DNA from: Rheinheimera sp.
GTDB lineage: Bacteria; Pseudomonadota; Gammaproteobacteria; Enterobacterales; Alteromonadaceae
Direction: 5' to 3'
DNA: 64,000 nt
Assembly (NCBI RefSeq): GCF_030690345.1
Contig: NZ_JAUYGV010000006.1
Location: 1,116,001 to 1,180,000, forward strand
Positions 35,065 through 62,125 of this stretch are shown in pieces (the first letter of the stretch is position 1; every line of letters begins with the position of its first letter). The position numbers and the translations under genes were made by a program. Under the pieces are notes generated by a model. It saw nothing but the letters and a program-made list of their open reading frames with translations. It searched no databases and was not told the origin of the DNA.

Positions 35065-35176
35065 GTGATAAATTTTAACTTGCTCTGCTGTCAATGCAGC
35101 GATAAGCTGTTGACTTCGCCATTTTGTTTGGCGTGAAAACGTAAACAAGCAGTAAACGGTAGCCGGTGTCGGAATA

Positions 35177-37786
35177 ATGATAATAATAACAAGGCTATGC
35201 CTGATTGCAGTCTGTGTTGTACTGGTGGCCTGTAAAGCCGATATCAGCGTGCAGGACGAACCGACAGATCCTGTGGTGCAGGAAATTGCGCTGGCTTTTG
35301 TTGAACGCCCACTGCTGATTAACGAAGATGAAGCTTATCAAACCAACCTGACTGACCCTGCTGCCTTTAACCCGGGCGCCCGCTTACTGCTAAAACAAAA
35401 TGCCTTTGCCCAATCTGTTGAAACAGACCTTACCGCCGGCCTGTTTGCCGAAGGTGCGTTATATGACGTCAAAGACCTCAGTGCGTCGCCCGATGGCTTA
35501 ACCTTAGTGTTTGCCTTACGGGCACCGGCACTGGAAAACGTTGCTGAAGAGCTGCAACCGAAATGGGATTTGTGGCGCTATGATGTACAAAGTAAAACTG
35601 TCAGCCCACTGATTGCCGATGCCCAATTAGCGCAGCGCGGCCATGATATCAGCCCGGCATTCTTACCGGATGGCCGTATTATTTTCAGCTCTACCCGCCA
35701 GACCACCGCACGGCAAATTCTACTGGACGAATTTAAACCGCAATACACGGCGTTGGATGAAAATTTAAACGCCCCGGCATTTAACCTGCACCTAATGAAT
35801 GCCGACGGTAGCGGCATTGAACAACTAAGCTTTAACCTGAGCCACGACCTGTATCCGGTGGTGCTGGACGATGGCCATATTTTGTATAGTCGCTGGGACA
35901 ACCAGAGCGATCGTTCAATGTTTAACTGGTACCAGATGCAGCCGGACGGCAGTGAAAACCAGTTAGTTTATGGCTGGCATTCACATGAAACCGGTGCTGA
36001 ACAGTCTGAAGTTGAATTTGTTAAAGCCGTACTACTGGAAGACGGTAGCGTAAGTACTGCGTTGGCTTCTACTGCCGCGCCTTATTACAACAGCTGGCCA
36101 CAGCAGGTTGCGCTGGCGCTGGCCAGTGACAATGAGCAGGCTCTGTTTGGCGAAACGCTGAACTTGCCGGCGCAAACGCCACTGTTTCCGTGGGCTTTTG
36201 ATAACACTGAACGCACCGAACCGGCCGGCGCCGTGCACAGCTATGCGCCGTTAAAAGATGGCAGCGGCCGTTTTTTAGTCAGTTGGTCACCGTGTCGCGT
36301 GTTGGTTGAAGAGGTAGCGTTCAGCTGTGCTCAGTTAGACGATGTCAGTGAATTGGAGCTGGCTGCACCTTTGTACGGCTTATGGTTATTTGATACCGAA
36401 AAACAAACTCAGGTACCGGTGCGGCCGGGTACAGAAGGCTTGCTGCTGGCCGAACCTGTGGTGCTGCAAGCTTACAGCGCCGGGGCGTTTTTACCACAGA
36501 ACCCGTTACTGGATGCAGAACTGGCCGCCGAAAATGCTGCGGTGCTGGATATTCGCAGCGTGTATGATTTTGCCGGTACTGCCAGCGTTAATATTGCCCA
36601 GCTGGCCGACCCGATGCAAAGCACGGCGGATGAGCGCCCGGCGCGGTTTTTACGCCTGGTGCGCGGCGTGCCGATGCCACCGGAAGAGGTGCTGGATGTA
36701 CCCAATTCCGCCTTTGGTGTCAGCCGTCGCCAACTGATGCGCGAAATTCTCGGCAGCGTGGCAATAGAGCCGGATGGCTCGGTACAGGTTAAGGTACCGG
36801 CCAATGTGCCGTTTAATTTGGCGTTGTTAAATGCACAGGGCCAGGCTATTTCGCCGCTGCATCAGCAGTGGATCACATTAAGGCCGGGCGAAACACGCAG
36901 TTGCAATGGTTGCCATAGCGCACAAAGCACAGCACCGCATGGCCGCTTAAGCGGCGAAGCGCCAACGGCGAACGCCGGCCTTGCCAGTGATGGCACCTTT
37001 GCCAATACCAACCCGCAAATTATCGCTCAGGCCGGTGAAACTATGGCACAAGCTGCCGCGCGGTTAAACGGTCTGCCTGAGCTAAACGAAGCCCTGGTTT
37101 ATCTGGATATCTGGACTGATCCTGCACTGCGCGCTGCAGATGCGCCTTTAACGGTCAGCCTGCAGGATTTAGCCACACCGCTGCCGGCCGGGGTGGCTTG
37201 CTTTAGCCAATGGCTGGCCAGTTGCCGCTTACGTATTGATTATCCTGAGCATATTCAACCCTTATGGCAGTTAGACCGGCGCCGTTTTGACCCCGATAGC
37301 AATGAATTGCTGGCCGATAACACCTGTGTCAGCTGCCACAGCCGCACCGATGCTAATGGCAACGGCCGCGTGCCGCTGGCGCAATTAGAGCTCGATAATG
37401 AGCCGTCTGATTTGGAAGCAGAGCACTATCGCAGTTACCGTGAACTGGTAAGCGTGGATAACGAACAGGAGTTAGTGGGCGGTGTATTGGTAGACCGGCT
37501 GGTTCAGGCCACCGATGCCGACGGTAACCTGCTGTTTTTAACCGATGAAAACGGCGATTTAATCCTCGATGATAGCGGTAACCCAATTCCGGTGATGGTT
37601 ACGGTGAATGTTGCGCCCGCCCTTCGTGTAGGCAATGCGCTGGGCAGTACGGCGTTTTTTAATCTGTTTGGCGCCGGCGGTTCGCACCAAGGCTATTTAT
37701 CGGCGGCAGAGTTGAAGCTGGTAGCAGAGTGGCTGGATATTGGTGCCCAGTACTACAACTCGCCCTTTGCTATCCCGGAGCAATAG
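35177..37786 (+). CDS. HzsA-like di-haem c lipoprotein with beta-propeller region
   Basis: The 869-residue protein starts with a lipoprotein signal (lipobox LVAC). The middle has WD40/TolB-like propeller strands (DISPAFLPDGRIIFSSTR, DLYPVVLDDGHILYSRWDN) and resembles the HzsA-related family, named after the hydrazine synthase alpha subunit. Two c-type haem sites are visible: CNGCH at residues 576-580 and CVSCH at 717-721. Hydrazine chemistry should not be assumed, because related proteins occur in non-anammox bacteria. It is the first gene of a 17-gene run and ends exactly one base before the next start. Likely location: outer-membrane-anchored, facing periplasm or surface. Confidence 0.75.
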   Translation: MIIITRLCLIAVCVVLVACKADISVQDEPTDPVVQEIALAFVERPLLINEDEAYQTNLTDPAAFNPGARLLLKQNAFAQSVETDLTAGLFAEGALYDVKDLSASPDGLTLVFALRAPALENVAEELQPKWDLWRYDVQSKTVSPLIADAQLAQRGHDISPAFLPDGRIIFSSTRQTTARQILLDEFKPQYTALDENLNAPAFNLHLMNADGSGIEQLSFNLSHDLYPVVLDDGHILYSRWDNQSDRSMFNWYQMQPDGSENQLVYGWHSHETGAEQSEVEFVKAVLLEDGSVSTALASTAAPYYNSWPQQVALALASDNEQALFGETLNLPAQTPLFPWAFDNTERTEPAGAVHSYAPLKDGSGRFLVSWSPCRVLVEEVAFSCAQLDDVSELELAAPLYGLWLFDTEKQTQVPVRPGTEGLLLAEPVVLQAYSAGAFLPQNPLLDAELAAENAAVLDIRSVYDFAGTASVNIAQLADPMQSTADERPARFLRLVRGVPMPPEEVLDVPNSAFGVSRRQLMREILGSVAIEPDGSVQVKVPANVPFNLALLNAQGQAISPLHQQWITLRPGETRSCNGCHSAQSTAPHGRLSGEAPTANAGLASDGTFANTNPQIIAQAGETMAQAAARLNGLPELNEALVYLDIWTDPALRAADAPLTVSLQDLATPLPAGVACFSQWLASCRLRIDYPEHIQPLWQLDRRRFDPDSNELLADNTCVSCHSRTDANGNGRVPLAQLELDNEPSDLEAEHYRSYRELVSVDNEQELVGGVLVDRLVQATDADGNLLFLTDENGDLILDDSGNPIPVMVTVNVAPALRVGNALGSTAFFNLFGAGGSHQGYLSAAELKLVAEWLDIGAQYYNSPFAIPEQ

Positions 37787-38509
37787 ATGATCAGATTTTT
37801 ACTGCTCTGCATCAGCCTATTCAGCTTAGCTACTGTGGCAGAGCCGGTTGATGTCAGCGTAAGCGGCGATTTTGTTAATTTGCACTCCGGTGCCGGCCGT
37901 GGTTATCCGATAGTGCAGGTAGCCATTAAGGGCGAGCGTTTAACGCTGCTGATCCAACGGCATGACTGGGTGCAGGTAGAGTTTAAGCAACAACAATACT
38001 GGCTGGCACGCGCCGACCTGACACAGGTTATTACCACGCAACAGCAGCGGTTTGATTTGTCTGACGACAGAATGGCGGCTTTTGAGGCGCGCACCCTGGA
38101 AGCCGGCATACAGTTTGGTGATTTTAACGGCAGCAGCATGTATCAAGTGTCGTTGGCGTATCTGTTCAGCCCTTATCTGCAAACCGAGCTCTCTGTCGGC
38201 CAGGCCAATGGCGACCAGGCAGATAATTTAGCGGCAGAGCTGAGCCTGTATTTAAGCCCGTGGCCGCATTGGCGCTTGTCACCTTACTTTGGTATTGGTG
38301 GCGGCGTATTGCGCACCACGCCGCGTACGGTGTTGGTGCAAACCCCGGATCGCAACAATAGTCTGGCCAGTGCCGAGTTTGGCCTGCGCTATTACCTGAG
38401 CCGTAATTTTATCGCCCGCGCGGCATACCGGCGCAGTGTTATCGTCACTGACCGTAACGACAATGAAGAGATTGACACATGGAAACTTGGTTTCAGCGTA
38501 TTTTTCTAG
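37787..38509 (+). CDS. SH3b-domain outer-membrane barrel protein
   Basis: The 240-residue protein has a signal peptide (to about residue 18), an SH3b-like domain (VDVSVSGDFVNLHSGAGRGYPIVQVAIKGERL) and then alternating amphipathic strands ending in aromatic Phe-Phe, typical of an outer-membrane barrel. SH3b domains commonly contact peptidoglycan, so it may tie the barrel to the cell wall. It starts immediately after the HzsA-like gene and overlaps the next barrel gene by 31 bp. It resembles barrel proteins found beside motility-type clusters in Myxococcus, an inference from domain make-up. Confidence 0.7.
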   Translation: MIRFLLLCISLFSLATVAEPVDVSVSGDFVNLHSGAGRGYPIVQVAIKGERLTLLIQRHDWVQVEFKQQQYWLARADLTQVITTQQQRFDLSDDRMAAFEARTLEAGIQFGDFNGSSMYQVSLAYLFSPYLQTELSVGQANGDQADNLAAELSLYLSPWPHWRLSPYFGIGGGVLRTTPRTVLVQTPDRNNSLASAEFGLRYYLSRNFIARAAYRRSVIVTDRNDNEEIDTWKLGFSVFF

Positions 38510-39093
38510 CTCTGTCTTTAACCTCTGCCGCAGCCATAGCGCAGCAGGTTGAACCGGACATCACGCCTGAGGTGGTGAGCGAAGATCTGCTCGACAGTGA
38601 AAACTGGTTGCTTGGCGCCCGCGTTGGTGTGCTGAGTATTGAGGATTTCGGCAGTAGTGCCCTGGCTGCGCTGGCGCTTAGTTATCATATTAACGAGGAC
38701 TTTTACCTTAGCGCCGAATATGCACAGGCTAAAGCCGGACGCACCTCGTTTGAAGAGTTAAGCGGCGCGGCACCGTTACTGACCGACAGCGAGCGGGAAT
38801 GGCGTTATTACGGCGCCCATTTGGGCTATATGGTATTGCCGGGTGAAGCTTTTTTAAGCGAAAACTACGCCTTGAACAGCGGACTGTCGCTGTTTATTGG
38901 TGGGGGAAATGTCGATTTTGCCGGCGATAAAGTATTTGCGCTGCAACTGGGCAGTCAGTTTCGCTTATATGCCACCGATTGGCTGGCACTGGAGCTGACG
39001 TTCAGCGATTACATTTTCGAAACCACCATTCTGGCACGCAGTAAAACCACGCATAACCTCAGCCTGGCTTTGGGTGTGGCGGTATATTTTTAG
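38479..39093 (+). CDS. Outer-membrane beta-barrel protein
   Basis: The 204-residue protein has a signal peptide (METWFQRIFLALSLTSAAAIAQQ, about 22 residues) and then regular beta-hairpins with a C-terminal strand ending in Val-Tyr-Phe, the usual sorting signature of barrels. The lengths suggest about eight strands. It overlaps the SH3b barrel gene by 31 bp, so the two are probably made in fixed ratio and may form a pair. No enzymatic motif is seen. Confidence 0.7.
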   Translation: METWFQRIFLALSLTSAAAIAQQVEPDITPEVVSEDLLDSENWLLGARVGVLSIEDFGSSALAALALSYHINEDFYLSAEYAQAKAGRTSFEELSGAAPLLTDSEREWRYYGAHLGYMVLPGEAFLSENYALNSGLSLFIGGGNVDFAGDKVFALQLGSQFRLYATDWLALELTFSDYIFETTILARSKTTHNLSLALGVAVYF

Positions 39094-39116
39094 CGATGCA
39101 AACAGCAGAGGCAGTA

Positions 39117-39599
39117 ATGAAAAAAACGATACAACAACTGGCGCTGGTACTGGCCTGTAGCTTAGCAGTAACGGCGCAGGGTGCTACGGCACCGGATTTC
39201 ACGTTAAAAGCTTTGGACGGTAATAACCTGCGGCTGGCGGAGCAGCGCGGCGACATTATGCTGATTAACTTCTGGGCCAGCTGGTGCGGCCCTTGTATTC
39301 AGGAAATGCCGGCGCTGGATAAACTGGCACAAAAGTATCAGATGATGGGCGTGCAGGTATGGGGCGTTAACGTGGAAAACGACAGCTCAGCCGCCAAAGC
39401 CTATCTGAGTAAGGTGCAGGTGGCGTTTCCGATTTTGTTTGATATCGACAACAGCGTATCCAAAGACTACCGCGTTGAAGCGATGCCCACTACGGTGATC
39501 CTGGATAAGGACGGCAAGGTCCGCACTGTGCATCGCGGCTATAAGCCGGGTTATGAGAAGAAGTATGAAGATGATATTAAAACACTGCTGCGTGAATAG
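39117..39599 (+). CDS. TlpA-type periplasmic thioredoxin
   Basis: The 160-residue exported thioredoxin-fold protein has the CGPC active site at residues 57-60 (WASWCGPC), the cis-Pro segment AMPTTVILDKDG and a signal peptide (MKKTIQQLALVLACSLAVTAQG). TlpA/ResA proteins reduce disulphides outside the cytoplasm, often for cytochrome c maturation or copper insertion. Here the neighbours are multihaem proteins and a Cys-containing DUF4266 lipoprotein. The frame is open from 39096, but the ATG at 39117 has AGAGG upstream and gives a proper signal peptide. Confidence 0.88.
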   Translation: MKKTIQQLALVLACSLAVTAQGATAPDFTLKALDGNNLRLAEQRGDIMLINFWASWCGPCIQEMPALDKLAQKYQMMGVQVWGVNVENDSSAAKAYLSKVQVAFPILFDIDNSVSKDYRVEAMPTTVILDKDGKVRTVHRGYKPGYEKKYEDDIKTLLRE

Positions 39600-39603
39600 C
39601 GTC

Positions 39604-39843
39604 GTGAATAAGCCGGTATCGGCTTTTATGCGCCTGCTGTTACCGGCGGCATTAGTGTTGCTCAGTGGTTGCAGCAGTATTCAGCCTTGGGTAAAGCCCT
39701 ATGAGCGCGACAAATTGGCCGATCCAATTATGGCGTTTGGCCGCCATCCGGTAGCGCTGCAACATGTGGCCCATGTGCAGGACTCACGTGAAGCGGCTAA
39801 AGGTGCTAACGGCAGCGGGGGCGGTGGTTGTGGCTGTAATTAG
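39604..39843 (+). CDS. DUF4266 lipoprotein with Gly/Cys-rich C-terminus
   Basis: The small protein (about 79 residues from a GTG at 39604, or 71 from an ATG at 39628) has a lipobox with Cys23 (LLSGCSS) and the DUF4266 core (WVKPYERDKLADPIM). It ends GSGGGGCGCN. The terminal Cys-Gly-Cys is a likely metal or thiol site and could be a substrate of the TlpA thioredoxin encoded just upstream. DUF4266 genes usually accompany DUF3570 and TlpA genes, as here. The reading frame is open from 39553. It overlaps the DUF3570 gene by 14 bp. Confidence 0.75.
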   Translation: MNKPVSAFMRLLLPAALVLLSGCSSIQPWVKPYERDKLADPIMAFGRHPVALQHVAHVQDSREAAKGANGSGGGGCGCN

Positions 39844-40966
39844 AGTCATTGCCGCAGCCTTGTTGCTGCTAAGCGGCGCCCTGGTTCAGGCAGCGGTATT
39901 GCCCGAAGACAGGGCTGATCTGATGTACCACGGCTATCAGGGCGGCGGCGTGTCTATTGACGGCCCTGCTGTGATGCTGCGCAAAAAAGCCGGCCAGTCG
40001 GTGTCGTTATCAGCCTATTACTACATCGACACTGTCTCCGGTGCCTCCATCGACGTAGAAGCCACCGCCTCGGCCTACACCGAAACCCGGCATGAAAAGC
40101 GTTTGGGTGTCGATTATCTGGCCGGCAACAGCATTTTAAGTCTGAACTATGCGCAAAGTGATGAAGACGATTACAACGCTAAGTCGGTGTCATTCGGCAT
40201 CGCACACGATACTTTTGGTGGTATGACGACGCTGAGCCTTGAAGCCGGGCTGGGCGATGACACTGTGGGTCGCAACGGTGATGAAAGCTTCAGTGCCGAT
40301 GTAAAGCGGTTTAATTACAAGTTTGGCTGGACTCAGGTGCTGAGCAGCCGCTGGATAGCGGCGCTGAATATGCAGGTCGACTTAGACGAAGGCTTTTTAA
40401 ATAACCCCTATCGCAGTGTGCGCTATCGTGATGCCACTGAAGCCCTCGGCTATGGTTATCAACGTGAGGTGTATCCGGACACCCGTAACGGCTTTGCCGT
40501 GTCGTTGGTGAATAAAGTGTATCTGCCGTACCGCGCTGCACTAAGCCTGAACCTGCGGCATTACCAGGACAGCTGGGACATCCGCGCCTTTGATGCGGAA
40601 GTGGAATATGTGCATCCGCTGACAGATCAGTGGACGCTGGAGGCCAAACTGCGCTGGTACAGCCAGGGCCAGGCAGAGTTTTACCGTGATTTATTCGATT
40701 TTGCCAATCAGCAAAACTTTATGGCGCGCGATAAAGAGTTAAGCGAATTTGACAACCTGACCTTAGGCCTGGGCGCCGGTTACCGCCTGCCGGTGTGGGA
40801 TTTCTGGCCCGGGGCGAAGCCCGAGCTGAACCTGCAGTGGGATCATATTCGCTTTAACTATAAAAATTTCCGCAATGTCACCATCACTGACGCCGGCGCC
40901 GGGCTTGAACCCCTGTATAGCCTGGACGCCAATGTGTTGCGGGCGTTTTTCAGCATTTACTTTTAA
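39830..40966 (+). CDS. DUF3570 outer-membrane barrel protein
   Basis: The 378-residue protein has a signal peptide (VIRVIAAALLLLSGALVQA) and a long series of amphipathic strands ending FFSIYF, a barrel C-terminus. The sequence matches DUF3570 (YHGYQGGGVSIDGPAVMLRKK, SLSAYYYIDTVSGASIDVEATAS), a large predicted outer-membrane barrel. The frame opens earlier at 39764, but that part overlaps DUF4266 and lacks signal-peptide character. I take the GTG at 39830. It is consistently paired with DUF4266, suggesting the lipoprotein docks with or modifies the barrel. Confidence 0.8.
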   Translation: MAVIRVIAAALLLLSGALVQAAVLPEDRADLMYHGYQGGGVSIDGPAVMLRKKAGQSVSLSAYYYIDTVSGASIDVEATASAYTETRHEKRLGVDYLAGNSILSLNYAQSDEDDYNAKSVSFGIAHDTFGGMTTLSLEAGLGDDTVGRNGDESFSADVKRFNYKFGWTQVLSSRWIAALNMQVDLDEGFLNNPYRSVRYRDATEALGYGYQREVYPDTRNGFAVSLVNKVYLPYRAALSLNLRHYQDSWDIRAFDAEVEYVHPLTDQWTLEAKLRWYSQGQAEFYRDLFDFANQQNFMARDKELSEFDNLTLGLGAGYRLPVWDFWPGAKPELNLQWDHIRFNYKNFRNVTITDAGAGLEPLYSLDANVLRAFFSIYF

Positions 40967-40978
40967 CGGGACACACCA

Positions 40979-41488
40979 ATGAGAACGCTGATACTAAGTG
41001 GATTGTTATGCTTAAGCGCTTTAGCCAGTGCCGATACGGCACCGGTTAGCTCGCAGTTAGAGCAGTTGAAGCAGCAGGTGATCCAGTTAAACCGTGAACT
41101 GTTTTTGCTCGAAGAAGAACTGCTGTTTCCGCCGGAAACCCAGCTGGCGGTATTTTTGTCGCTCGACAGCGGCCAGTTTTTTCAAATTGACAGTGTAGAG
41201 CTGATCCTGAATGACAAACCGGTCGGTGCTTTTCTTTACACCACACAACAGCGTGAAGCCCTGCAACGCGGCGCTATTCAGCCGTTATATAAAGGCAATG
41301 TCAAAGCCGGTGAACATAATCTTACCGCGGTTTTTGTTGGCAAAGGCCCGGATAACCGCGATTACCGCCGTGCGGTAAATTACCGCTTTGCCAAAGCAGA
41401 CGATGCCGTGTTGCTGGAGCTGCAGGTGAAGGATCGCAGCAGCGACTATCAACCCGACTTTATTGTGCAGCCATGGTCCAACGACTGA
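40979..41488 (+). CDS. Periplasmic coiled-coil protein of the envelope-machine cluster
   Basis: The 169-residue protein has a signal peptide (MRTLILSGLLCLSALASA), a short coiled coil (VSSQLEQLKQQVIQLNRELFLLEEELLFP) and a beta-rich, Ig-like part (ETQLAVFLSLDSGQFFQIDSVELILNDKPVGAFLYT). No catalytic motif is seen. I do not recognise a named family. The 3' end overlaps the next TPR gene by 16 bp and it lies 12 bp after DUF3570, so it belongs to the same operon. A periplasmic scaffold role is an inference. Confidence 0.65.
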   Translation: MRTLILSGLLCLSALASADTAPVSSQLEQLKQQVIQLNRELFLLEEELLFPPETQLAVFLSLDSGQFFQIDSVELILNDKPVGAFLYTTQQREALQRGAIQPLYKGNVKAGEHNLTAVFVGKGPDNRDYRRAVNYRFAKADDAVLLELQVKDRSSDYQPDFIVQPWSND

Positions 41489-43356
41489 TTTGCCCGCTGT
41501 TGTATCTGCTGGCGCTGCACGCAACGCCGGCATTTGCGCAGGCGGCCATCAACGATAAGCAGCAGTTGCTCACAGAGAAACACTACCGCCAGGCGGCGTG
41601 GGCGTTTTATCAACAGCAACCGGCGCAAGCACTGGAAGCCTTGCAGTTGGCTCCTCAGCAGGATCAGCGCACTCAGTTGCTTGAAGCCGGGTTGTATCTG
41701 CAATTGCAGATGCCACAGCACGCCGCTGAGGTGCTGGCACGGCTGTTAGCCGCTGACAGTGAGGGCGACAACGCCCTGCCGGCGGCGCTGCGCAACATTG
41801 CCTTGTTGCAATTTGCCCGTTATCAGTTGGAGTCAGGGGATAAAGCCGCGGCGCGGCAATATTTAGCCCAAGTGAAGATTACCGCCGACGGTGCCTGGTT
41901 GGGCCAGCAGCAGTTGCTGAGCCAGCTGATCAGCTGGCCGGATATCGAGATACCGGCGCAACCGGATTTTGTCTCGTTGGCACAGCAGCCGGAAATGCCC
42001 TATATCATCAGTAATCAGGCGTTAGTGCTGGCCAAACAACAGCCGGAAATAGCATTGCAGTGGCTCAGCCGGTTGCAACAGCAGTTGGCGGTAGATGCGC
42101 CGCAAGGGTTCTGGCAACTGTTATTCAGTGGCCAGTGGCCGCTGCAGTCACAGCCGCAGGGTTTTGTTTACCCACAAGAAGAGCAGCAGGCGCTGGACGA
42201 CTATGTACAATTGACACAAGCACAGTTACTGATCGAACAGCAGGATCTGGCCGGTGCCGATCGCATTTTGGCTAACTTCGGCGCTGACAGTGTGCTCAGC
42301 AGCAGCGCCTTACAACTGTACAGCCATATTTTGACTGAGCAGCGGCATATTCCCGCCTTACTGGCCGTGTTACAGCAGCAAATTAAACAACAACCGTTCA
42401 GCCTCACCGCCTGGCAAGCTGCCACCCGTATTGGTGAGCAGTTGGAGCGCTCATTGCAGCCACGCGATGCCCTGGCCGCTTACCACTGGGCGCAGCAGTA
42501 CTACCAGCAACAAACGCAATTGATTAACCAACAAGCTACGCCGCTGCAGGTAAACCAACTGCAACAAGGCTTGTCGCAATGGCAAACACTGCAACTGAGC
42601 AATGACAATAACCTGCACCGCTTACAGCAGGATGCACTGGCGTTGCAACAGCAACTGAATGCGGCGCCACAGCGGCAACAGCGGCTGCTGCAGTTACAAG
42701 AGATAACCGCCTATAAACTGACGCAACAGCAGCAATTGCTGACGGGGCAGCTGCCGCTGTTAGTGGCCCGCAAGCAGCAACTGAGCCAGCGCTATACCCA
42801 ACTGCAGCAACAGATAAATGAGGCTGCCACAGCACCGATGGCATTAGCGTTGTGGCAGGGCGAGCCTTATCAGCAACTTAGCCGGTTGGAGCGCTCAGAG
42901 CAACGCTTGCAACAGCTGGAGCAAAGCGGCCAACCGACAGCGGCATACCGGCAACGCCTGCAACGGCTGCGCGGTTTGCTGCAATGGCAGTACAGCGACA
43001 GTACAGCGCAGCGGCGCTGGCAATTCCAACGGGCGCAGCAACAGTTAGCCACCCAGCTCAGTGCGTTGGAGCAGCAGTTGGCGGCTTTGCAACAACGCGG
43101 CGGTAAGGCGGCAAGGCTGCAGCAATTACAACAACGGTTGGCACAGTTAACGCAACAGCAGCAACAGCTTAATCTGGCGCTGTTAAGCCAGCAACAACAG
43201 CTGTTGGCGCAGTTAAATCAGCAGTTGCAGCAAATACGCCGGCAACAATTGGCGCAGTTAACGCAGTTACAACGGCACAATAAAGAATCCATGGCACGGG
43301 TAATGGAGCGGGTATTACTGATGGCTGATGCCAATGCTGACGGAGGCCAGCCATGA
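41473..43356 (+). CDS. Glutamine-rich periplasmic TPR/coiled-coil protein
   Basis: The 627-residue exported protein has a signal peptide (about 22 residues), N-terminal TPR-like helices (RQAAWAFYQQQPAQALEALQ, LLEAGLYLQLQMPQHAAEVLARLL) and a very glutamine-rich C-terminal half (about residues 350-610) with long predicted coiled coils. The composition suggests an elongated periplasmic rod. It overlaps both neighbours (16 bp upstream, 4 bp downstream). It resembles, in architecture only, the TPR proteins of the Agl-Glt and Nfs machines. The repeat-rich DNA makes antisense reading frames common here; they are not genes. Confidence 0.7.
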   Translation: MVQRLICPLLYLLALHATPAFAQAAINDKQQLLTEKHYRQAAWAFYQQQPAQALEALQLAPQQDQRTQLLEAGLYLQLQMPQHAAEVLARLLAADSEGDNALPAALRNIALLQFARYQLESGDKAAARQYLAQVKITADGAWLGQQQLLSQLISWPDIEIPAQPDFVSLAQQPEMPYIISNQALVLAKQQPEIALQWLSRLQQQLAVDAPQGFWQLLFSGQWPLQSQPQGFVYPQEEQQALDDYVQLTQAQLLIEQQDLAGADRILANFGADSVLSSSALQLYSHILTEQRHIPALLAVLQQQIKQQPFSLTAWQAATRIGEQLERSLQPRDALAAYHWAQQYYQQQTQLINQQATPLQVNQLQQGLSQWQTLQLSNDNNLHRLQQDALALQQQLNAAPQRQQRLLQLQEITAYKLTQQQQLLTGQLPLLVARKQQLSQRYTQLQQQINEAATAPMALALWQGEPYQQLSRLERSEQRLQQLEQSGQPTAAYRQRLQRLRGLLQWQYSDSTAQRRWQFQRAQQQLATQLSALEQQLAALQQRGGKAARLQQLQQRLAQLTQQQQQLNLALLSQQQQLLAQLNQQLQQIRRQQLAQLTQLQRHNKESMARVMERVLLMADANADGGQP

Positions 43357-47116: not shown

Positions 47117-47129
47117 GAGGATGTTTTTC

Positions 47130-47789: not shown

Positions 47790-48291
47790 AGCACCCCTTG
47801 CCGATGCCGAGCTTGATATCACGTCCTTTATGAACCTGATGATCGTGCTGGTACCGGTATTGCTGCTCAGCCTGGTGTTCGCGCAAATTCGCGTGCTGAA
47901 TATTCAGCTGCCGCCGTTAAGCGAACAGCAATTGCAGCAAGAACAACAACAACCGCAGCAACTGGAGTTGGAAATTCATGCCAACCGCTTGCGGCTGAAT
48001 TATCCGGCCGGCGAGCCGCTGCGGGTATTTGAGCTGACAGAGCAGGGCAAGCTGGATTTTGCCGCACTAAGCCTGTATCTGCAGGACTTGAAGCTGACAT
48101 TTCAGCAACAGCAGATTGAAAAACAGGACATCAGCATTCTGGCACCGGACGAGCTGGATTACCAAACGTTGGTTACCGCTATGGATACCGTGCGTTCATT
48201 TAAAGCCGTAGTGGCGGCGCAGGTGGTGGATGCCGAACTGTTCCCGCAAATTTCGCTTGGTCAGTTGCCATCAGCGGAGGGTACAGAATGA
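47773..48291 (+). CDS. ExbD/AglQ-type motor protein with Asn at the proton site
   Basis: The 172-residue protein has one N-terminal membrane helix (DITSFMNLMIVLVPVLLLSLVF) and a periplasmic domain. The position of the proton-carrying Asp of ExbD (PFIDVML in E. coli) is Asn21 here, so this subunit alone should not conduct protons. A following second ExbD keeps the Asp. The frame opens at 47746, but MIKRRKAPLADAELD at 47773 gives the family-like basic N-terminus. It overlaps both neighbours (17 bp and 4 bp). Confidence 0.82.
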   Translation: MIKRRKAPLADAELDITSFMNLMIVLVPVLLLSLVFAQIRVLNIQLPPLSEQQLQQEQQQPQQLELEIHANRLRLNYPAGEPLRVFELTEQGKLDFAALSLYLQDLKLTFQQQQIEKQDISILAPDELDYQTLVTAMDTVRSFKAVVAAQVVDAELFPQISLGQLPSAEGTE

Positions 48292-48815
48292 AGATGTCAT
48301 TTCGTGCCAAACGGCTGGAGCGGCAAAACCAGCGCCTGGCGCAGGGCAGTAAACTGAACCTGGTGGCACTGATGGATATTTTTACCATCCTGGTGTTCTT
48401 TTTAATGGTGAACCAGTCTGAAGTTAAAGTGTTGCAAAGCAACAAAGATATCAGCTTACCGCGCTCGGTGTCGGAGCAGCTACCCGGCGAGAAAGTGATG
48501 TTAACCATTACCGCCAACGGCATACTAGTGCAAGGCAAACCGGTATGGCAGGGCGACTGGCAGCAAGACAGTAACCTGTGGTTAGCCGATCTTACCGCCG
48601 CGCTGACAACAGAACTGAATTATCTGTCCGGCCGCGCCGGGCCCTTGCCTGAAGCACAACAGCAAAATGGCCGTGCCCTTACCATACTGGGCGATGCCGC
48701 CACGCCGTATGCGCTGCTGCGGCAATTGATGGCGATCTGCGCGGCCACCGAGTATCGCGATTTATCGCTGGCAGTAGAGACCATGCCGGCGGCGACTGTG
48801 GCGGAGGCACCATGA
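48288..48815 (+). CDS. ExbD/AglS-type motor protein with intact Asp
   Basis: The 175-residue protein has one N-terminal membrane helix (LNLVALMDIFTILVFFLMVNQ) with Asp30 at the ExbD proton-carrier position, then a periplasmic domain. Together with the Asn21 paralogue it could form an asymmetric dimer in the ExbB ring. Two ExbD genes behind one ExbB gene is the same arrangement as aglR-aglQ-aglS of Myxococcus. It overlaps the AgmX-like gene by 4 bp. Confidence 0.85.
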   Translation: MKMSFRAKRLERQNQRLAQGSKLNLVALMDIFTILVFFLMVNQSEVKVLQSNKDISLPRSVSEQLPGEKVMLTITANGILVQGKPVWQGDWQQDSNLWLADLTAALTTELNYLSGRAGPLPEAQQQNGRALTILGDAATPYALLRQLMAICAATEYRDLSLAVETMPAATVAEAP

Positions 48816-49750
48816 CAACGCTGACCATGGCTACCTTTGAAACGCAGCAGTTTGAAGATAAACGTTTTTACCGTCTGTTATGGCTGGGTTTTCTGTTATG
48901 GCTGCTGTTTGCTGTACTCATACCGGCCCTGACCGTGCCGGAACGTAGCCGCCAGCTGCAGGAACAATTGCCGCCGCAGTTAGCGCGGGTGATGCTGGAA
49001 GAGCGCAAAGCACCGCCACCGCCTGAACCCGAGCCGGTGCCTGAACAGGTAGTTGAGCCGGTGAAGCCGGAACCGGCAACTGAGCCGGTAGAGGCAACAC
49101 CGGAGCAGGTTAAACCTGATCCGCAACAGGCACGCCAGCAAGCCGAGCAAGCCGGCCTAATGGCAATGCGCGATGATTTGGCGGCGCTGCGGCAAAGCTT
49201 TCAGTTAAATAACAGCGCGCCGCAGGTAAAAAGCCGCGGCGAGCAGCAAGCCACACAGGTAGAGCGTAAGTTGCTGCGCAACGAAGCCGCCAAAAGCTTT
49301 GCCAGTGCTGAAGCTGCCGCCGTGGCCGGTGATATTGCCCGTTCTGAATTGGCCGATATCGGCAGTACTCGTTTAGCTGAAACAGAGCTCAAGGGCTTAT
49401 CTGCCAACGCGCCGGCGCAGCAACAAAACCGCAGCGCAGCCGATAGCAGCGGTGGTCCGCAGGGGCGTTCAGAGGCGACTATCCGTCGTGTACTGGAGGC
49501 GAATAAAAGCAGTTTATATACGCTGTACAGCCGGGCGCTGCGTGCCAATCCGTTGCTGAAGGGCAAAGTGGTATTTGAGTTAGTGATCCGTCCGGACGGC
49601 AGTTTGGCCGAAGTCAACATAGTGCAAAGTGAGCTGAACGACAGCAAGCTGGAGCGGCAATTAACGCTACGCTTACGCTCAGTCAATTTTGGTGCCGAGG
49701 CAGTAGCCTTAACCCGTTCGCAGTGGACGGTGGAGTTTTTACCGGGCTGA
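48812..49750 (+). CDS. AgmX/PglI C-terminal domain TonB-like linker protein
   Basis: The 312-residue protein has one membrane helix (about residues 22-45), a proline/glutamate/valine-rich periplasm-spanning linker (KAPPPPEPEPVPEQVVEPVKPE) and a C-terminal TonB-like domain of the AgmX/PglI type (SEATIRRVLEANKSSLYTLYSRAL to LKGKVVFELVIRPDGSLAEVNI). Such proteins carry force from an ExbB/ExbD motor to outer-membrane partners. It closes the motor module and is 21 bp before the haem protein gene. AgmX/PglI-type proteins belong to the Myxococcus gliding set. Confidence 0.85.
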   Translation: MTTLTMATFETQQFEDKRFYRLLWLGFLLWLLFAVLIPALTVPERSRQLQEQLPPQLARVMLEERKAPPPPEPEPVPEQVVEPVKPEPATEPVEATPEQVKPDPQQARQQAEQAGLMAMRDDLAALRQSFQLNNSAPQVKSRGEQQATQVERKLLRNEAAKSFASAEAAAVAGDIARSELADIGSTRLAETELKGLSANAPAQQQNRSAADSSGGPQGRSEATIRRVLEANKSSLYTLYSRALRANPLLKGKVVFELVIRPDGSLAEVNIVQSELNDSKLERQLTLRLRSVNFGAEAVALTRSQWTVEFLPG

Positions 49751-49771
49751 TAACAGCCGGAGGTGATAAAA

Positions 49772-50971
49772 ATGCGTTATTTACCTTATGCCACTTTGCT
49801 GGCGCTTGGCAGCCTGCTGCTGTTTGGCGCCACCGCACAGGCCGGCTCGTTAGAGCAGGCCAAGCGGCTGCACGACCGTATCGCCGGCGTACCGGCCGAT
49901 GCGGCAACCCTAAGTCAGATGCAAACGCTGATTGATAACGGCAATGCCACGGCAGCGGCAGAGCTGGCAATGCAGCACCCGGATTTTTACCGCACTACAT
50001 TAAAGTTGTTTGCCGCTGCGGCCACTAACCGCGACCAGGATGTGTTTGAGCCGCTGAATGACTACAGCGCAACGGTAATTGGCCTGGTACGGGATGACGT
50101 CGATTTTCGCCAGTTATTGCAAACCGATATTTTGTATGTCGGTGCTGACAGCCTCGGCTTACCGCCTTATAACAGTAACGACAATGAACATTATCTGGCA
50201 CTGGAGCGCCAGGCGGTAGATTTAGCTCAGCATTTAGAGCCCAGGGCGCAAAGCACACTAAACGGTATTCCAGCTGATGCCGCCGCCGGGATTATGACCA
50301 GCCGCGCCGCCGCCAAAGCGTTTTTTTATCTGGGTACCAACCGGGCCATGTTCCGTTTTACGCTGATGAATCAGCTGTGTACGGATTTAGAGCCGCTGCA
50401 GGATATTACCCGGCCAACCGACCGCATTCGCCAGGATGTCAGCCGCAGCCCGGGCGGCGACAGCCGTATTTTTAATAACCGCTGTGTTGGCTGTCATGCC
50501 GGCATGGACCCGCTGGCGCAGGCGTTTGCCTATTACGACTATCAGTTTACTGATGAAGACGGCAGTAACGGCCGGATTTTTTATCAGCAAAGCGGCACGC
50601 AAAACGACATAACGCAAAGCCGCGTGCAACCGAAATACCATATTAATGCCGGCAGTTTCCCCTATGGTTTTCGCACCCCGGATGACAGCTGGAGCAACTA
50701 CTGGCGTGAAGGCCAAAACCAGTCTTTGGGCTGGGATAACAGTTTACCGGGCAGTGGTAACGGCGCCAAAAGCCTCGGCGAAGAGCTGGCTAACAGCACG
50801 GCCTTTGCCCAATGTCAGGTTAAAAAAGTGTTCCGCACCGTATGTTTGCGTGAGCCGCAAAGCCTGGCTGATGTGAATACCCTGCACAGTATTACCGACA
50901 CTTTCCGCACCGGTGGTTATCTGCTGAAGCAGGTATTTGCTGACACTGCTACTTATTGTATGGGAGATTAG
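49772..50971 (+). CDS. Exported mono-haem c protein
   Basis: The 399-residue protein has a signal peptide (MRYLPYATLLALGSLLLFGATAQA) and one c-type haem site, CVGCH at residues 238-242, within CVGCHAGMDPLAQAFAYYDY. That context resembles the cysteine box of DUF1588/DUF1585-type planctomycete cytochromes. GGAGGTGA directly upstream is a near-perfect Shine-Dalgarno and decides the ATG at 49772 over an earlier GTG. No enzyme activity can be assigned. It is 2 bp before the next haem lipoprotein gene. Confidence 0.72.
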   Translation: MRYLPYATLLALGSLLLFGATAQAGSLEQAKRLHDRIAGVPADAATLSQMQTLIDNGNATAAAELAMQHPDFYRTTLKLFAAAATNRDQDVFEPLNDYSATVIGLVRDDVDFRQLLQTDILYVGADSLGLPPYNSNDNEHYLALERQAVDLAQHLEPRAQSTLNGIPADAAAGIMTSRAAAKAFFYLGTNRAMFRFTLMNQLCTDLEPLQDITRPTDRIRQDVSRSPGGDSRIFNNRCVGCHAGMDPLAQAFAYYDYQFTDEDGSNGRIFYQQSGTQNDITQSRVQPKYHINAGSFPYGFRTPDDSWSNYWREGQNQSLGWDNSLPGSGNGAKSLGEELANSTAFAQCQVKKVFRTVCLREPQSLADVNTLHSITDTFRTGGYLLKQVFADTATYCMGD

Positions 50972-50973
50972 TG

Positions 50974-53400
50974 ATGAAGTTATTTTTACTCCCTATGCTG
51001 GCGCTGAGCCTGGTATTGGCCGGTTGTGGCGGTGCAGAGGTAGAACAAAATCCGCCGCCACCGGTTCAGGAAGACAACACCAACTACACTGGGCCTGCAC
51101 CGCAAACTGATGATATTCAGCTGTTTAAACTCACCTTGTGGGACAACATTGCCAGTGCAAACCGCTGTGGTGCCTGCCATGTGCAAAGCAATACCGCGCC
51201 TTATTTTGCCCGTAATGACGATATTAATCAGGCTTATGCTGCCGCCGTACCGCTGGTTAACCTGGCCGACCCGGCGCAGTCGTTATTAGTAACCAAGTTG
51301 GCCGGCGGACATAACTGTTGGCTGGCCAGCGATACAGCCTGTGCCGATACCATGGCGCAGTGGCTGCGCAACTGGGCCAACAGCAGCGATACCGAAAGCG
51401 CCACGGTAGCATTAGTGGCACCGCCGGTGCGTGAACCCGGCAGCAGCAAGGTGCTGCCACAAGACCCGGCACTATTTAGCAACAGCGTGTATCCGCTGTT
51501 ACGCCAGTATTGTGTCAATTGCCATGCGCCCGATGCGCCGCAAACACAGTCGCCGTTTTTTGCCGACAGCGACCTGGCGGCGGCCTATGAAGCCAGCCGT
51601 AAGCTGATTAACCTTGATAATCCGCAATTATCGCGCTTTGTTGCCAGGCTTGGTGGTGAGTTTCATAACTGCTGGTCCAACTGTGATGATGATGCGGCCG
51701 ACATGCTGGCCGCTATCAGACAAATAGCCGACAACGTTGAGCTGAGCGCGCTTGACCCTGCGCTGGTGCCGTCTAAAGCACTGCGGTTGGAAGATGGTAT
51801 TGTTGCCTCCAGTGGCGGGCGTTTTGAAGCCAACCAGATTGCCTTTTACCAGTTTAAAACCGGCGAGGGCGTTATTGCTTATGATACTTCCGGCGTAGAG
51901 CCGGCAGCGAATTTAAGCCTGCAGGGTGATATCAGCTGGGTAACCGGCTGGGGCCTGCAAATTAACAGTGGCCGGGCGCAGGCCAGTACGCAAAACAGTG
52001 CCAAGTTGGCGCAGTTGATCAGTGCCACCGGCGAGATGAGTATCGAAGCCTGGGTAGTGCCGGCCAATGTGGTACAGGAAGGCCCTGCGGCTATTGTCAG
52101 CTACGCCGGTAGCAGCAGTGAGCGTAATTTTACGCTGGGACAAAGCCAGTATAACTACGACTTTTTACTGCGCTCAGACAGTGCCGATTTTGCCGGCTTA
52201 CCGGCCCTGAGTACCGCGGATGCGGATGAAGTGTTGCAAGCTACGTTACAGCATGTAGTGCTGACGCAGGACCCGGTAAACGGCAAGCGTATCTATGTTA
52301 ATGGTCAGGACACCGGCGTGCGCCAGCCGGCTGATGCTATCCGCAACTGGGACAGCAGCTATGCGCTGATTGTTGGTAACGAGGCCAACGGTAACCGGCA
52401 GTGGCAGGGCACAGTGCGGCTGCTGGCGGTGCATAATAAGGCGCTGAGTGCGGCACAAATTCAGCAGAATTATGAGATTGGCGTCGGTCAGAAGTTCTAC
52501 CTGCTGTTTGGTGTCGGCGAGCTGATTAACCTGGCCGACAGCTATATCGTGTTTGAAGTAGCGCAGTTTGACAGCTATTCCTACCTGTTTAATGCACCTT
52601 ATCTGGTGAATCTGGAGGGGCGCAGCTTGCCGCAAGACCTGCTGATAAGCGGTATGGCACTGGGTATGAACGGTAAAGAAGTGGTTACCGGTCAGGCCTG
52701 GTTAAAACAGCAGTTTAGCCTGGCTGGCGGTACTGCGTTAACAGAGGGGGCGGTGTTGTCGACGCAGGGCACTATTATCGGCACTGAGCTGGGCGCCGGC
52801 GCGGACGAGTTTTTCTTATCCTTCGGCCGTATTGGTGAATTTGAAAACGTGCGCAGCGGTATCAGTGTGCCGGTGCAGCAAATTATTGCCACCGGTGATG
52901 AAAGCAGTGATATCGGCTTGCGTACCTTTGCTGAAATTCATGCCGGCATGAGTGCATTAACCGGGGTGGCGCAGCAACAAAGTGCGGTGTCTGCGGTATA
53001 TCAAACCATCCAGCGCCAGTTACCGGCTGCCGATAATATCGACACCTTTGTCTCGGCGCAGCAAATGGGCATTACCCAGTTGGCGATTGCCTATTGCAAT
53101 GCAGCGATAAGCGATAACAACATCCGCCAGAGCTGGTTCCCTGCGGTGGATTTCAGTACCGGCCCGGCAACTACCTATAGCCTGGCTAACCGGCCGTTGT
53201 TTATGCAGCCGTTGCTGGATCAGCTAATGCCGTTGTCGCCGCAAACGTCGGCGCTGCGCGCTGATGTCGAGACGGAGCTTGACGCGCTGATTACGCGGTT
53301 AAGTAACTGTGGCGGGGCCTGCAGCGCCGACCGCAGTACAACCATTGCCAAAGCGGCCTGTACTGCGGTACTGGCCAGTGCTGAACTGCTGGTGCAGTAG
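50974..53400 (+). CDS. Di-haem c lipoprotein with LamG-like domain
   Basis: The 808-residue protein has a lipobox (LVLAGCGG), two c-type haem sites (CGACH at residues 65-69, CVNCH at 180-184), and a concanavalin/LamG-like domain in the middle (MSIEAWVVPANVVQEGPAAI to VLTQDPVNGKRIYVNGQ). The C-terminal third is unrecognised. LamG domains bind glycans or proteins, so it could be a surface adhesin with electron-transfer sites. The start at 50974 follows GGGAG; an earlier in-frame ATG lies inside the upstream gene. The next gene starts 10 bp later. Confidence 0.72.
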   Translation: MKLFLLPMLALSLVLAGCGGAEVEQNPPPPVQEDNTNYTGPAPQTDDIQLFKLTLWDNIASANRCGACHVQSNTAPYFARNDDINQAYAAAVPLVNLADPAQSLLVTKLAGGHNCWLASDTACADTMAQWLRNWANSSDTESATVALVAPPVREPGSSKVLPQDPALFSNSVYPLLRQYCVNCHAPDAPQTQSPFFADSDLAAAYEASRKLINLDNPQLSRFVARLGGEFHNCWSNCDDDAADMLAAIRQIADNVELSALDPALVPSKALRLEDGIVASSGGRFEANQIAFYQFKTGEGVIAYDTSGVEPAANLSLQGDISWVTGWGLQINSGRAQASTQNSAKLAQLISATGEMSIEAWVVPANVVQEGPAAIVSYAGSSSERNFTLGQSQYNYDFLLRSDSADFAGLPALSTADADEVLQATLQHVVLTQDPVNGKRIYVNGQDTGVRQPADAIRNWDSSYALIVGNEANGNRQWQGTVRLLAVHNKALSAAQIQQNYEIGVGQKFYLLFGVGELINLADSYIVFEVAQFDSYSYLFNAPYLVNLEGRSLPQDLLISGMALGMNGKEVVTGQAWLKQQFSLAGGTALTEGAVLSTQGTIIGTELGAGADEFFLSFGRIGEFENVRSGISVPVQQIIATGDESSDIGLRTFAEIHAGMSALTGVAQQQSAVSAVYQTIQRQLPAADNIDTFVSAQQMGITQLAIAYCNAAISDNNIRQSWFPAVDFSTGPATTYSLANRPLFMQPLLDQLMPLSPQTSALRADVETELDALITRLSNCGGACSADRSTTIAKAACTAVLASAELLVQ

Positions 53401-53410
53401 GAGAAAAGTT

Positions 53411-54988
53411 ATGAAACGTAAAACACCTTTGCACCCGGACAGCCCGCTGTTTCACGCCTGCCACAGCAAGCCGGTAAGCCGGCGTGATTTTATCGCCTGC
53501 GGTATGGGCTATGGTGCAGCAGTGCTGACCAGCGGCTCGGTATTTGGCCTGTTTGCTAATCCCAACAAAGCCTATGCCCAGTTGTCGCCGGATCTGGAAG
53601 CGTTAAAGCAGCTGTGCGGTATTAATGTGCAGGGCGCCGGTAAAATTCCGTTCATTTGCTTTGATTTAGCCGGTGGCGCCAATATTGCCGGCTCCAATGT
53701 GCTGGTGGGCGGTGCCGGTGGTCAACTGGACTTTTTATCGGTGCAGGGTTATAGCAAGCTGGGTTTACCGGCCGATATGGTGCCGACCGCGGTAAATGCC
53801 GCCAATCCGGCCGGTGGCTTTGTTAACGATCAGTTGGGGTTGGCGTTTCACAGCGACTCGCAAATGCTGGCCGGTATTTTAGAGCGCACCACTATGGCCA
53901 CCCAGGCCATGACTAACGGCGCTGTATTGCCGTCGCGGTCAGAAAACGATACCGGCAATAACCCGCATAACCCGATGTATGCCATTGCCAAAGCTGGTGC
54001 CAGCGGCTCGTTAATGCCGCTGATTGGTTCCCGTAACTCTGACTCCGGCGCTAATTCCATGATGCCAATGGAGTTTTATAATGCTGAGCTTAGGCCCACC
54101 AAAATTGACCGGCCATCTGATGTCACCGGTTTGGTGGATGTGGGCGATTTATTCAGTTTATTAAATCAGAATGATGCGGTGGCGGTAATGGAATCGGTGC
54201 AGCGCATCAGCGACAGCAAACTGGGCCGCGTGAATACCAATATCAGCCGTGATGCGGTAATTAAAGAGCTGATCCGCTGCGGCTACGTGAAAAGTGCCGA
54301 TCTGGCAGATCGCTTCGGCAACCCTGCGACACTGGACCCGGCCGCAGATCCGGATATTGTCGGTGCGGCCGGCATTTTCACTGCGGACGAATTTAATGCC
54401 GACGCTGAGTTTCGTAAAACCGCATCGGTAATGAAGCTGGTAGTAAACGGCTTTGCCGGTGCCGGCTCCATCACCATTGGTGGCTATGACTACCATACCG
54501 GCGAGCGCGGTACCGGTGAGCTGCGTGATTTACGCGCCGGCCGCTGTATTGGCGCCTGTCTGGAGTATGCTGCGCGGATGAACCAGCCGCTGATGATATA
54601 CGTATACAGCGACGGCTCGGTGGCCAGTAACGGCCGTATTGATGACTCGGAATTTGGCCGCGGTAAAGGCGAGTGGACCGGCGATAATTCCTCCACTGCA
54701 GCCTCTTTTATGTTGGTGTACAGCCCGAACGGCAGGCCGTCTTTACTCGGTGGCACGCCGGCAGAACAAGCACGGCATCAACAAATTGGTTTTATGCGAC
54801 CGGATGCCTCAGTCGAAACCGGCTCGTCTATCGCGGCCAATAATGTCAACTTACTGGTGCAAACCGTAATGCTGAATTATCTGGCCTTACACGGTGAGCA
54901 AGGCCGGCTTAGCGAAGTGGCGCCGTTTCATGGTTTGGGTAATGCCGCCAGCGTTGACAGGTTAACGGCCTTTGCGCCGATAATTTAG
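53411..54988 (+). CDS. Tat-exported DUF1501-like protein
   Basis: The 525-residue protein has a twin-arginine signal (SRRDFIACGMGYGAAVLTSG) and resembles the DUF1501 family, which has an alkaline-phosphatase/sulfatase-like fold. Segments such as GGYDYHTGERGTGELRDL and SDGSVASNGRIDDSEFGRGKG fit that family's metal-site region. DUF1501 proteins in planctomycetes are paired with cytochrome-like lipoproteins, the same pairing as here. The frame is open from 53309, but AGGAGA before the ATG at 53411 marks the start. It is the last gene of the run. Confidence 0.68.
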   Translation: MKRKTPLHPDSPLFHACHSKPVSRRDFIACGMGYGAAVLTSGSVFGLFANPNKAYAQLSPDLEALKQLCGINVQGAGKIPFICFDLAGGANIAGSNVLVGGAGGQLDFLSVQGYSKLGLPADMVPTAVNAANPAGGFVNDQLGLAFHSDSQMLAGILERTTMATQAMTNGAVLPSRSENDTGNNPHNPMYAIAKAGASGSLMPLIGSRNSDSGANSMMPMEFYNAELRPTKIDRPSDVTGLVDVGDLFSLLNQNDAVAVMESVQRISDSKLGRVNTNISRDAVIKELIRCGYVKSADLADRFGNPATLDPAADPDIVGAAGIFTADEFNADAEFRKTASVMKLVVNGFAGAGSITIGGYDYHTGERGTGELRDLRAGRCIGACLEYAARMNQPLMIYVYSDGSVASNGRIDDSEFGRGKGEWTGDNSSTAASFMLVYSPNGRPSLLGGTPAEQARHQQIGFMRPDASVETGSSIAANNVNLLVQTVMLNYLALHGEQGRLSEVAPFHGLGNAASVDRLTAFAPII

Positions 54989-62121: not shown

Positions 62122-62125
62122 GATT

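Follow-up and report, generated by a model that had tools for sequence, protein, structure and literature searches.

Here we describe a block of 18 genes in a 64,000-nucleotide stretch of Rheinheimera sp. DNA (NCBI RefSeq assembly GCF_030690345.1, contig NZ_JAUYGV010000006.1, positions 1,116,001 to 1,180,000; hereafter the window, numbered from its first letter). All 18 genes lie on the + strand between positions 35,177 and 54,988, between recA and a contractile-injection-system cluster (Table 1); 12 of the 17 junctions overlap, and called genes are never more than 12 bases apart. A first-pass annotation of the same DNA had described 17 genes on one strand; the single strand and the tight packing stand, and the gene count is corrected to 18. 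Nine of the genes form a motor module (u169, coil627, TPR944, TPR215, u101, ExbB, ExbD1, ExbD2 and an AgmX/PglI linker) and nine a redox module (HZS-like, SH3omp, OMPmyx, TlpA-like, DUF4266, DUF3570, cyt402, cyt814 and a sulfatase-fold protein), and with apbE (56,778–57,926, minus strand) the full system comprises 19 genes. It is a real, widespread and co-inherited system of two parts that were separately known and unexplained.

The clearest terminator lies upstream of the block, 3' of recA. Inside the block, terminator-like sites are about as frequent as expected by chance (32 found, 27.0 expected, standard deviation 5.6), in agreement with the first-pass statement that no terminator lies inside. 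Searching positions 35,000 to 54,999 for sigma-70-like promoters gave none on the + strand and 4 on the − strand, compared with a mean of 12.5 in shuffled sequences. That annotation had also reasoned that internal promoters or terminators splitting the run into unrelated transcripts would speak against a single system; the run has no + strand promoter of this kind and no excess of terminators.

Table 1 Features of the block, its upstream edge and the downstream apbE gene.
Feature	Coordinates	Strand	Remarks
Intrinsic terminator	35039..35060	+	9-pair stem, loop of 4, T-rich tail; after recA, upstream edge of block
HZS-like, hydrazine-synthase-alpha-related di-haem c lipoprotein	35177..37786	+	PF18582 62.6 bits, PF07676 30.4 bits
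SH3omp, SH3-like domain and outer-membrane barrel	37787..38509	+	PF13505 28.9 bits (cut-off 28.7)
OMPmyx, outer-membrane barrel of OMP_myx_plus family	38479..39093	+	TIGR04565 147.9 bits (cut-off 60)
TlpA/ResA-like exported thioredoxin	39096..39599	+	PF08534 110 bits
DUF4266 small lipoprotein with C-terminal CxC tail	39553..39843	+	PF14086 77.2 bits; start probably further downstream
DUF3570, predicted 16-strand outer-membrane barrel	39764..40966	+	PF12094 144 bits; SGAS at residues 92–95
u169, conserved exported protein, marker of core complex	40979..41488	+	Co-occurs with AgmX across Gammaproteobacteria
coil627, Q-rich coiled-coil envelope protein	41473..43356	+	GltC-like by position only
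TPR944, large TPR lipoprotein	43353..46187	+	PF13174 38.1 bits, PF07719 31.5 bits; GltD-like by position only
TPR215, small TPR lipoprotein, weakly PilW/Tgl/GltE-like	46174..46821	+	TIGR02521 48.5 bits, NF033762 31.0 bits, NF033758 27.1 bits
u101, small exported protein	46811..47116	+	No Pfam or NCBIfam match
ExbB/TolQ/AglR-type proton-channel subunit	47121..47789	+	PF01618 97.3 bits
ExbD1, Asn replacing transmembrane Asp	47746..48291	+	PF02472 52.1 bits
ExbD2, transmembrane Asp present	48288..48815	+	PF02472 47.4 bits
TonB-like linker with AgmX/PglI C-terminal domain (GltG/GltJ-related)	48812..49750	+	NF033768 57.8 bits (cut-off 40)
cyt402, exported mono-haem c protein	49763..50971	+	One CxxCH; outside known families
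cyt814, di-haem c lipoprotein with lectin-like (LamG) domain	50956..53400	+	PF13385 67.5 bits
Tat-exported alkaline-phosphatase/sulfatase-fold protein	53309..54988	+	"DUF1501-like" in the first-pass annotation; likely start 53,411
ApbE FAD:protein FMN transferase	56778..57926	-	PF02424 271 bits; about 1.8 kb downstream of block

The idea that motor and haem genes behave as one unit, put forward in the first-pass annotation, is supported by their joint presence and absence. Among 31 genomes of the genus, the HZS-like gene and u169 occur in the same 23, and the remaining 8 are without either (concordance 31/31). In a class sample of 274 gammaproteobacterial genomes, for which mainly the main HZS-like match of each genome was used, a match of at least 140 bits was taken as HZS-positive; this kept 39 of 45 HZS genomes and dropped G131, G164, G210, G298, G326 and G344, each with a best match below 50 bits. 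u169 is present in 38 of the 39, the same 38 have a DUF3570, and in 29 of these 38 the HZS-like gene and u169 lie on one contig within 24 kb. Fisher's p for the association is 2.5e-37 over the 274 genomes with kinship ignored, and the presence/absence pattern within the genus is independent of this value. When u169 is split at 200 bits or more, a threshold set after the scores had been seen, 35 of 37 genomes carry the HZS-like gene. The other two are G115, in which the stretch (L122) holds the motor with SH3omp, OMPmyx, TlpA and DUF3570 and no haem genes, and G191, in which the contig end falls inside the redox genes. Among the 200 genomes of a phylum sample, u169 turned up in 8, each of them from the window's class, the number of sampled genomes from other classes not being stated. 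As a separate observation, contig C16:99620-102853 of G570 carries a second recA beside a degraded, stop-filled HZS-like gene, with the good copy on C13; this is either a duplication or contamination.

The linkage also survives rearrangement. We took the best 80 of at least 545 relatives of the HZS-like profile, all 80 gammaproteobacterial by title, and among these the system is seen in Rheinheimera, Shewanella, Colwellia, Marinobacter, Microbulbifer and Alteromonas. For 55 of the 80, at least 9 kb is available on both sides of the HZS-like gene (full-flank loci). All nine redox genes are present in 50 of the 55, and u169 lies within 10 kb of the HZS-like gene in 49, with coil627 adjoining u169 in 49 of 55. 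The position of u169 varies: it follows DUF3570 in 37 loci, lies beyond the sulfatase-fold gene on the strand of that gene in 11, and lies there in the opposite orientation in 1. Linkage that persists through three arrangements is stronger than linkage in a single order. The single-strand block itself was seen in the window and in three fetched relatives from the genus, and cyt402 is divergent from the HZS-like gene in all 51 full-flank loci where it was seen. With this divergence and the three placements of the motor block, the recurring order from HzsA-like through DUF1501-like that the first-pass annotation had looked for is not widespread. The system is also carried by L088, a metagenome-assembled record titled Klebsiella pneumoniae, a title that is probably wrong.

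In a close relative, G561 (RecA 98% identical), the order is recA, a solute-binding-protein (SBP) gene and injection-system genes, and both the block and apbE are absent in 14.6 kb after recA. The SBP gene that stands between block and apbE in G566 and G549 is kept in G561. The joint absence of block and apbE, with the intervening gene retained, ties apbE functionally to the block. The other seven genus genomes that lack the block have no apbE in the 11–16 kb after recA, the part of them that was searched. In the window, block and apbE are separated by two family-3 SBP genes, one on the + and one on the − strand (55026-56699); tblastn with both as queries in G566, G549 and G561 lands on a single gene. 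Beyond the block region follow contractile-injection-system genes (58104-62988; Pvc16-like, sheath, two tube proteins and a CIS tube protein), and G561, G566 and G549 have such neighbours likewise.

The haem proteins are conserved in the features that define them. The HZS-like protein combines PD40 repeats, an HZS middle domain and two CxxCH motifs and matches PDB 5c2v_A at E 5e-14; both CxxCH are kept in 80 of 80 relatives, and 61 of the 80 carry a lipobox pattern. The single CxxCH of cyt402, a protein without a Pfam match, is kept in 71 of 71 relatives, and relatives of cyt814 retain two CxxCH in 66 of 67 cases and a lipobox pattern in 52 of 67. The five haem-c sites in three exported proteins that were reported at first pass are thus recovered (2 + 1 + 2), in numbers that relatives share. 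Thiol chemistry is represented by the TlpA-like protein, with WCxxC in 69 of 70 relatives, and by DUF4266, which ends in CxC in 66 of 69. The HZS-like protein has four further invariant cysteines outside its haem motifs (373, 384, 675 and 683), which suggests disulfides that may be served by the TlpA/DUF4266 pair instead of, or besides, the flavin.

Outer-membrane barrels had been recognized in the first-pass annotation, and three proteins fit: SH3omp, barely above the PF13505 cut-off, OMPmyx, by its TIGR04565 match, and DUF3570, by its predicted structure. Two further matches of SH3omp fall below their cut-offs (PF08239 25.9 against 27, TIGR04565 33.8 against 60). The 559-residue last protein of the block has the alkaline-phosphatase/sulfatase superfamily fold. 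Its earlier label, DUF1501-like, is given up: Pfam DUF1501 was matched neither by this protein nor by 41 family members at E values up to 10.

The redox branch of the first-pass annotation was built on haem, which holds, and haem is joined by flavin: its parts list had overlooked the DUF4266/DUF3570 flavin pair and apbE. In Chlorobium, DUF3570 is flavinylated by ApbE, according to the text excerpts of PMC8238504. The AlphaFold model of the block's DUF3570 has 16 strands (pLDDT 89.6, pTM 0.81), and the 50 solved structures listed for it by Foldseek are by title all outer-membrane proteins or complexes, with no closer family among the matches listed. A D-x-[IV]-[ST]-x-A-S motif is present in 74 of 74 aligned DUF3570 proteins, and the window protein carries the strict form [ST]GA[ST], as SGAS. 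By analogy with the published [ST]GA[ST] motif, the flavin acceptor would be the last serine, Ser95 in the window protein. In the model the motif falls in the loop that follows strand 3. This loop and the N terminus are on opposite sides of the barrel, and we take the side of the loop to be the cell exterior. Eight loops on that side (95 residues) hold 24 of the 43 invariant residues, including the flavin site, and seven turns on the N-terminal side (30 residues) hold 3. The same genome encodes a second DUF3570 with a higher score (530 bits) on contig C8:73018-75167, directly before another apbE and apart from the block.

In the motor module, the ExbB and two ExbD proteins named at first pass are confirmed by Pfam and the AgmX/PglI TonB-like linker by NCBIfam, the linker also showing a weak likeness to TonB chains in the PDB (E 0.04). 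Three TPR proteins had been counted; Pfam finds TPR in two, of 944 and 215 residues, and the 627-residue protein, coil627, has no Pfam match. All three TPR215 scores are below their cut-offs; for the GltE model NF033758 the cut-off is 225. For u169 there is no Pfam or NCBIfam match, and the best PDB sequence match has E 0.55. ExbD1 and ExbD2 diverge at the position of the transmembrane acid, in redox-linked and stand-alone clusters alike: Asn is found in 28 of 29 aligned ExbD1 (the sole one with Asp is from G115) and Asp in 29 of 29 ExbD2. In the ExbD family this transmembrane Asp carries the proton. Since ExbD1 has Asn in its place, the motor looks, from its residues, to have a single protonatable ExbD chain. 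In Myxococcus, AglQ D28N abolishes function (PMC3858216, in the text excerpts). The conserved Asp/Asn split makes this motor well suited to the question of how many of the subunits have to be protonatable in motors of this kind.

A number of observations weigh against reading motor and redox genes as one fixed unit. In 6 of the 55 full-flank loci u169 is beyond 10 kb or unseen, and 5 of 12 order relatives for which stretches were fetched (G003, G013, G014, G029 and G059) have the redox set with unrelated genes at the motor position; the stretches of two others, G016 and G058, stop at contig ends. In G132, the one HZS-positive exception in the class sample, the HZS-like gene is split between two frames; this genome also has cyt402, cyt814 and the sulfatase-fold gene, and no match to u169, AgmX or DUF3570. 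apbE lies inside the locus in 31 of 55 full-flank loci and no more, and the strict [ST]GA[ST] motif is found in 24 of the 74 aligned DUF3570 (as SGAS), the others having SSAS, SAAS or TSAS. Seven of the 39 HZS genomes are without the sulfatase-fold gene, and in the maps of G142, G224 and G154 the HZS, flavin and motor genes are present with none of cyt402, cyt814 and the sulfatase-fold gene in the stretch; these three genes therefore look optional. Finally, of the 59 genomes with u169, 21 have no strong HZS-like match, which means that the motor is not dedicated to the redox set. For AgmX, 61 genomes were tallied and 59 used, the two with the weakest matches, G104 and G346, being left out. The first-pass annotation had held that independent occurrence of motor and haem genes in most relatives would count against one system; this is not what we see, though 5 of 12 order relatives lack adjacent motor genes in the fetched stretches. 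The dependence is one-way: the redox set is seldom found without the motor block, and the motor block is often found without the redox set.

Thirteen stand-alone motor clusters were mapped (L125, L126, L139-L141, L148-L150 and L157-L161); apart from one TlpA-like gene in L150, no redox genes were found near them, and no cargo set was found beside them, the neighbours, judged by eye, being inconsistent. A TPR944 tree of 84 rows, made by a quick method and with long-branch warnings, has one side on which all 45 rows are redox-linked, a share biased by the use of the HZS-like gene as bait for the redox-linked rows. The stand-alone clusters require 7 changes on this tree, at least 5 of them forced, and so do not form one clean clade. 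Nine genomes (G154, G162, G175, G179, G226, G276, G294, G300 and G303) have a u169-coil block without adjoining ExbB, ExbD or AgmX. These blocks mostly keep TPR944, TPR215 or u101 and are then followed by unrelated genes; the AgmX linker is found elsewhere in 9 of 9 genomes, and in 7 of 9 the motor-free u169-TPR block shares a contig with the HZS-like gene. For these nine genomes, the simplest explanation would be a shared motor. In Myxococcus, AglRQS is one motor that drives both Glt and Nfs (PMC3858216, in the text excerpts). Envelope blocks without a motor of their own raise the possibility that in gammaproteobacteria, too, one motor may serve several machines.

Our preferred interpretation, on which we are evenly divided, is that the 19 genes form one system, in which an Agl-type motor works or moves a relay of thiols, flavin and haems that spans the outer membrane. 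ApbE would attach flavin mononucleotide to DUF3570 in the periplasm, ahead of insertion into the outer membrane, and the TlpA-like thioredoxin and the CxC tail of DUF4266 would trade thiol electrons with the DUF3570 flavin. The flavin would in turn pass electrons on to the HZS-like di-haem lipoprotein, as well as to cyt814 and cyt402 in those loci that have them; at the cell surface, chemistry on an outside substrate would then take place. This path from TlpA-like through DUF4266 and DUF3570 to the haems is proposed because of the barrel model, the flavin motif, the CxC tail and the lipobox patterns; electron flow in the reverse direction is possible. With a lectin-like domain in cyt814 and a sulfatase-like fold in the last protein, a glycan is a plausible guess for the substrate. 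Acting via the linker and TPR proteins, the proton-driven motor would move or gate the outer-membrane redox parts, as Agl moves Glt or Nfs. Surface motility and adhesion, two functions suggested at first pass, found no support in the tests made here. The link between the modules is firm; the substrate, the order and direction of electron flow, the surface location of the cytochromes and the task of the motor are what we infer. A more specific version, which we offer tentatively, is a force-coupled machine in which the motor mechanically gates or positions the thiol-flavin-haem conduit that delivers electrons to a surface enzyme. The conduit would cross the outer membrane by way of a barrel with covalent FMN, supplied from its lower side by the CxC tail of the lipoprotein. 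If true, the gammaproteobacterial core complex would have a task assigned to it for the first time; no described system that couples an ExbBD-type motor to outer-membrane electron transfer was found in the literature searched.

That 21 of 59 genomes have the motor block and no redox genes also fits a different machine, in which the core is a general surface-transport device that moves a surface polymer, like Nfs, and the redox enzymes cross-link or modify that polymer as one cargo set of several. AglRQS drives Nfs as well as Glt, and Nfs moves spore-coat glycan (PMC3858216, in the text excerpts); the nine genomes with motor-free u169-TPR blocks and an AgmX linker elsewhere, the LamG domain carried by cyt814 and the fold of the last protein, that of the sulfatase superfamily, point in the same direction. 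There are, however, no polysaccharide synthesis or export genes among the 19, and the stand-alone clusters, with neighbours that are inconsistent when judged by eye, have no cargo set beside them, which leaves this explanation rather doubtful. The combination of ExbBD with a TonB-like linker invites another, namely that flavin and haems reduce an outside acceptor in metal (for example, iron) acquisition or respiration and that the motor powers uptake, and the text excerpts of PMC8238504 describe 25 clusters in which DUF3570 is accompanied by a VIT1 iron transporter. We consider it unlikely: the 19 genes include no TonB-dependent receptor or metal transporter, and the linker ends in an AgmX/PglI domain whose likeness to TonB is weak.

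It could also be that two unrelated transcription units sit side by side in the window's genus through chance or hitch-hiking. The modules do separate at the level of the locus, as in the order relatives and full-flank loci without nearby motor genes (5/12 and 6/55), but the concordance within the genus (31/31) and in the class sample (38/39), together with the linkage in three arrangements, makes this very improbable.

New, as far as we can tell, are the joining of the modules, the tie to apbE, the pattern of a motor in trans and the asymmetry between the two ExbD; no literature joining the motor and redox modules was found in what was searched, most subscription papers and preprints lying outside it. 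The block offers a first lead on the possible use of a widespread gammaproteobacterial motor, and it ties two puzzles, the job of the core complex and the role of DUF3570, to each other and to conserved haem proteins. Given that many culturable marine genera carry it, both questions are directly testable in one organism.

Both parts have precedents. The seven-gene core of the Myxococcus gliding machinery was found in gammaproteobacteria with unknown function (Luciano 2011, PMC3169522, in the text excerpts), and the core complex has been called basal transport machinery (Wartel 2013, PMC3858216, in the text excerpts). Myxococcus Agl-Glt and Nfs share the motor, TPR and linker parts, as remarked at first pass; the motor module of the block fits the Luciano 2011 core complex. 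With the Group B form of that complex (aglRQS and gltC, D, E and G) the block shares ExbB/TolQ with two ExbD/TolR, a GltG-type linker by its AgmX/PglI domain, and the placement of the genes in one cluster; counterparts of GltC and GltD are assigned by position and TPR/coiled-coil character only. The gammaproteobacterial core includes one extra gene without a Myxococcus homologue (PMC3169522, in the text excerpts), perhaps u169. Common to the block and Agl-Glt/Nfs are ExbB, two ExbD, an AgmX/PglI linker, TPR lipoproteins and a coiled-coil protein in one cluster, as well as a motor that possibly serves more than one envelope complex. The block also has two adjacent barrels, SH3omp and OMPmyx, which may be related to GltB and GltA. 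It differs from Agl-Glt/Nfs in the flavin-haem redox set and apbE, which are unmentioned in the text excerpts of PMC3169522 and PMC3858216, gene-map Figure S1 aside. A plain copy of the gliding machine was rejected, given that GltJ (NF033761) scores 34.8 bits against a cut-off of 450 and the full-length GltG model NF033760, on the block linker, 36 against 650.

Clusters of apbE, DUF3570, DUF4266 and a thioredoxin-like gene have already been described, with their role left open in the text excerpts (eLife 2021, PMC8238504). They and the block have in common the DUF3570 barrel with a flavinylation motif, the DUF4266 CxC tail, a thioredoxin-like protein and a nearby apbE. The block differs in its lower-scoring form of DUF3570, in the absence of DsbD and in being joined to haem proteins and a motor. 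Its thioredoxin is also of the TlpA/Redoxin type and not the PF13899 of the clusters in those excerpts; it matches Redoxin, AhpC-TSA and other thioredoxin families, with PF13899 not among the 8 matches listed. For Planctomycetota and KSB1, it has been proposed that HZS-like proteins form a broader family whose members have other substrates (PMC10732223, in the text excerpts). The PD40 repeats, the CxxCH middle domain and a C-terminal segment of hydrazine synthase alpha (PDB 5c2v) align in order with the HZS-like protein of the block, which was rejected as a true hydrazine synthase alpha at 39.3 bits against the NF052339 cut-off of 800. Porin-cytochrome conduits of the MtrCAB type transfer electrons across the outer membrane. 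This task would be shared with the block, whereas the proposed carrier in the barrel would here be a covalent flavin with thiols and few haems.

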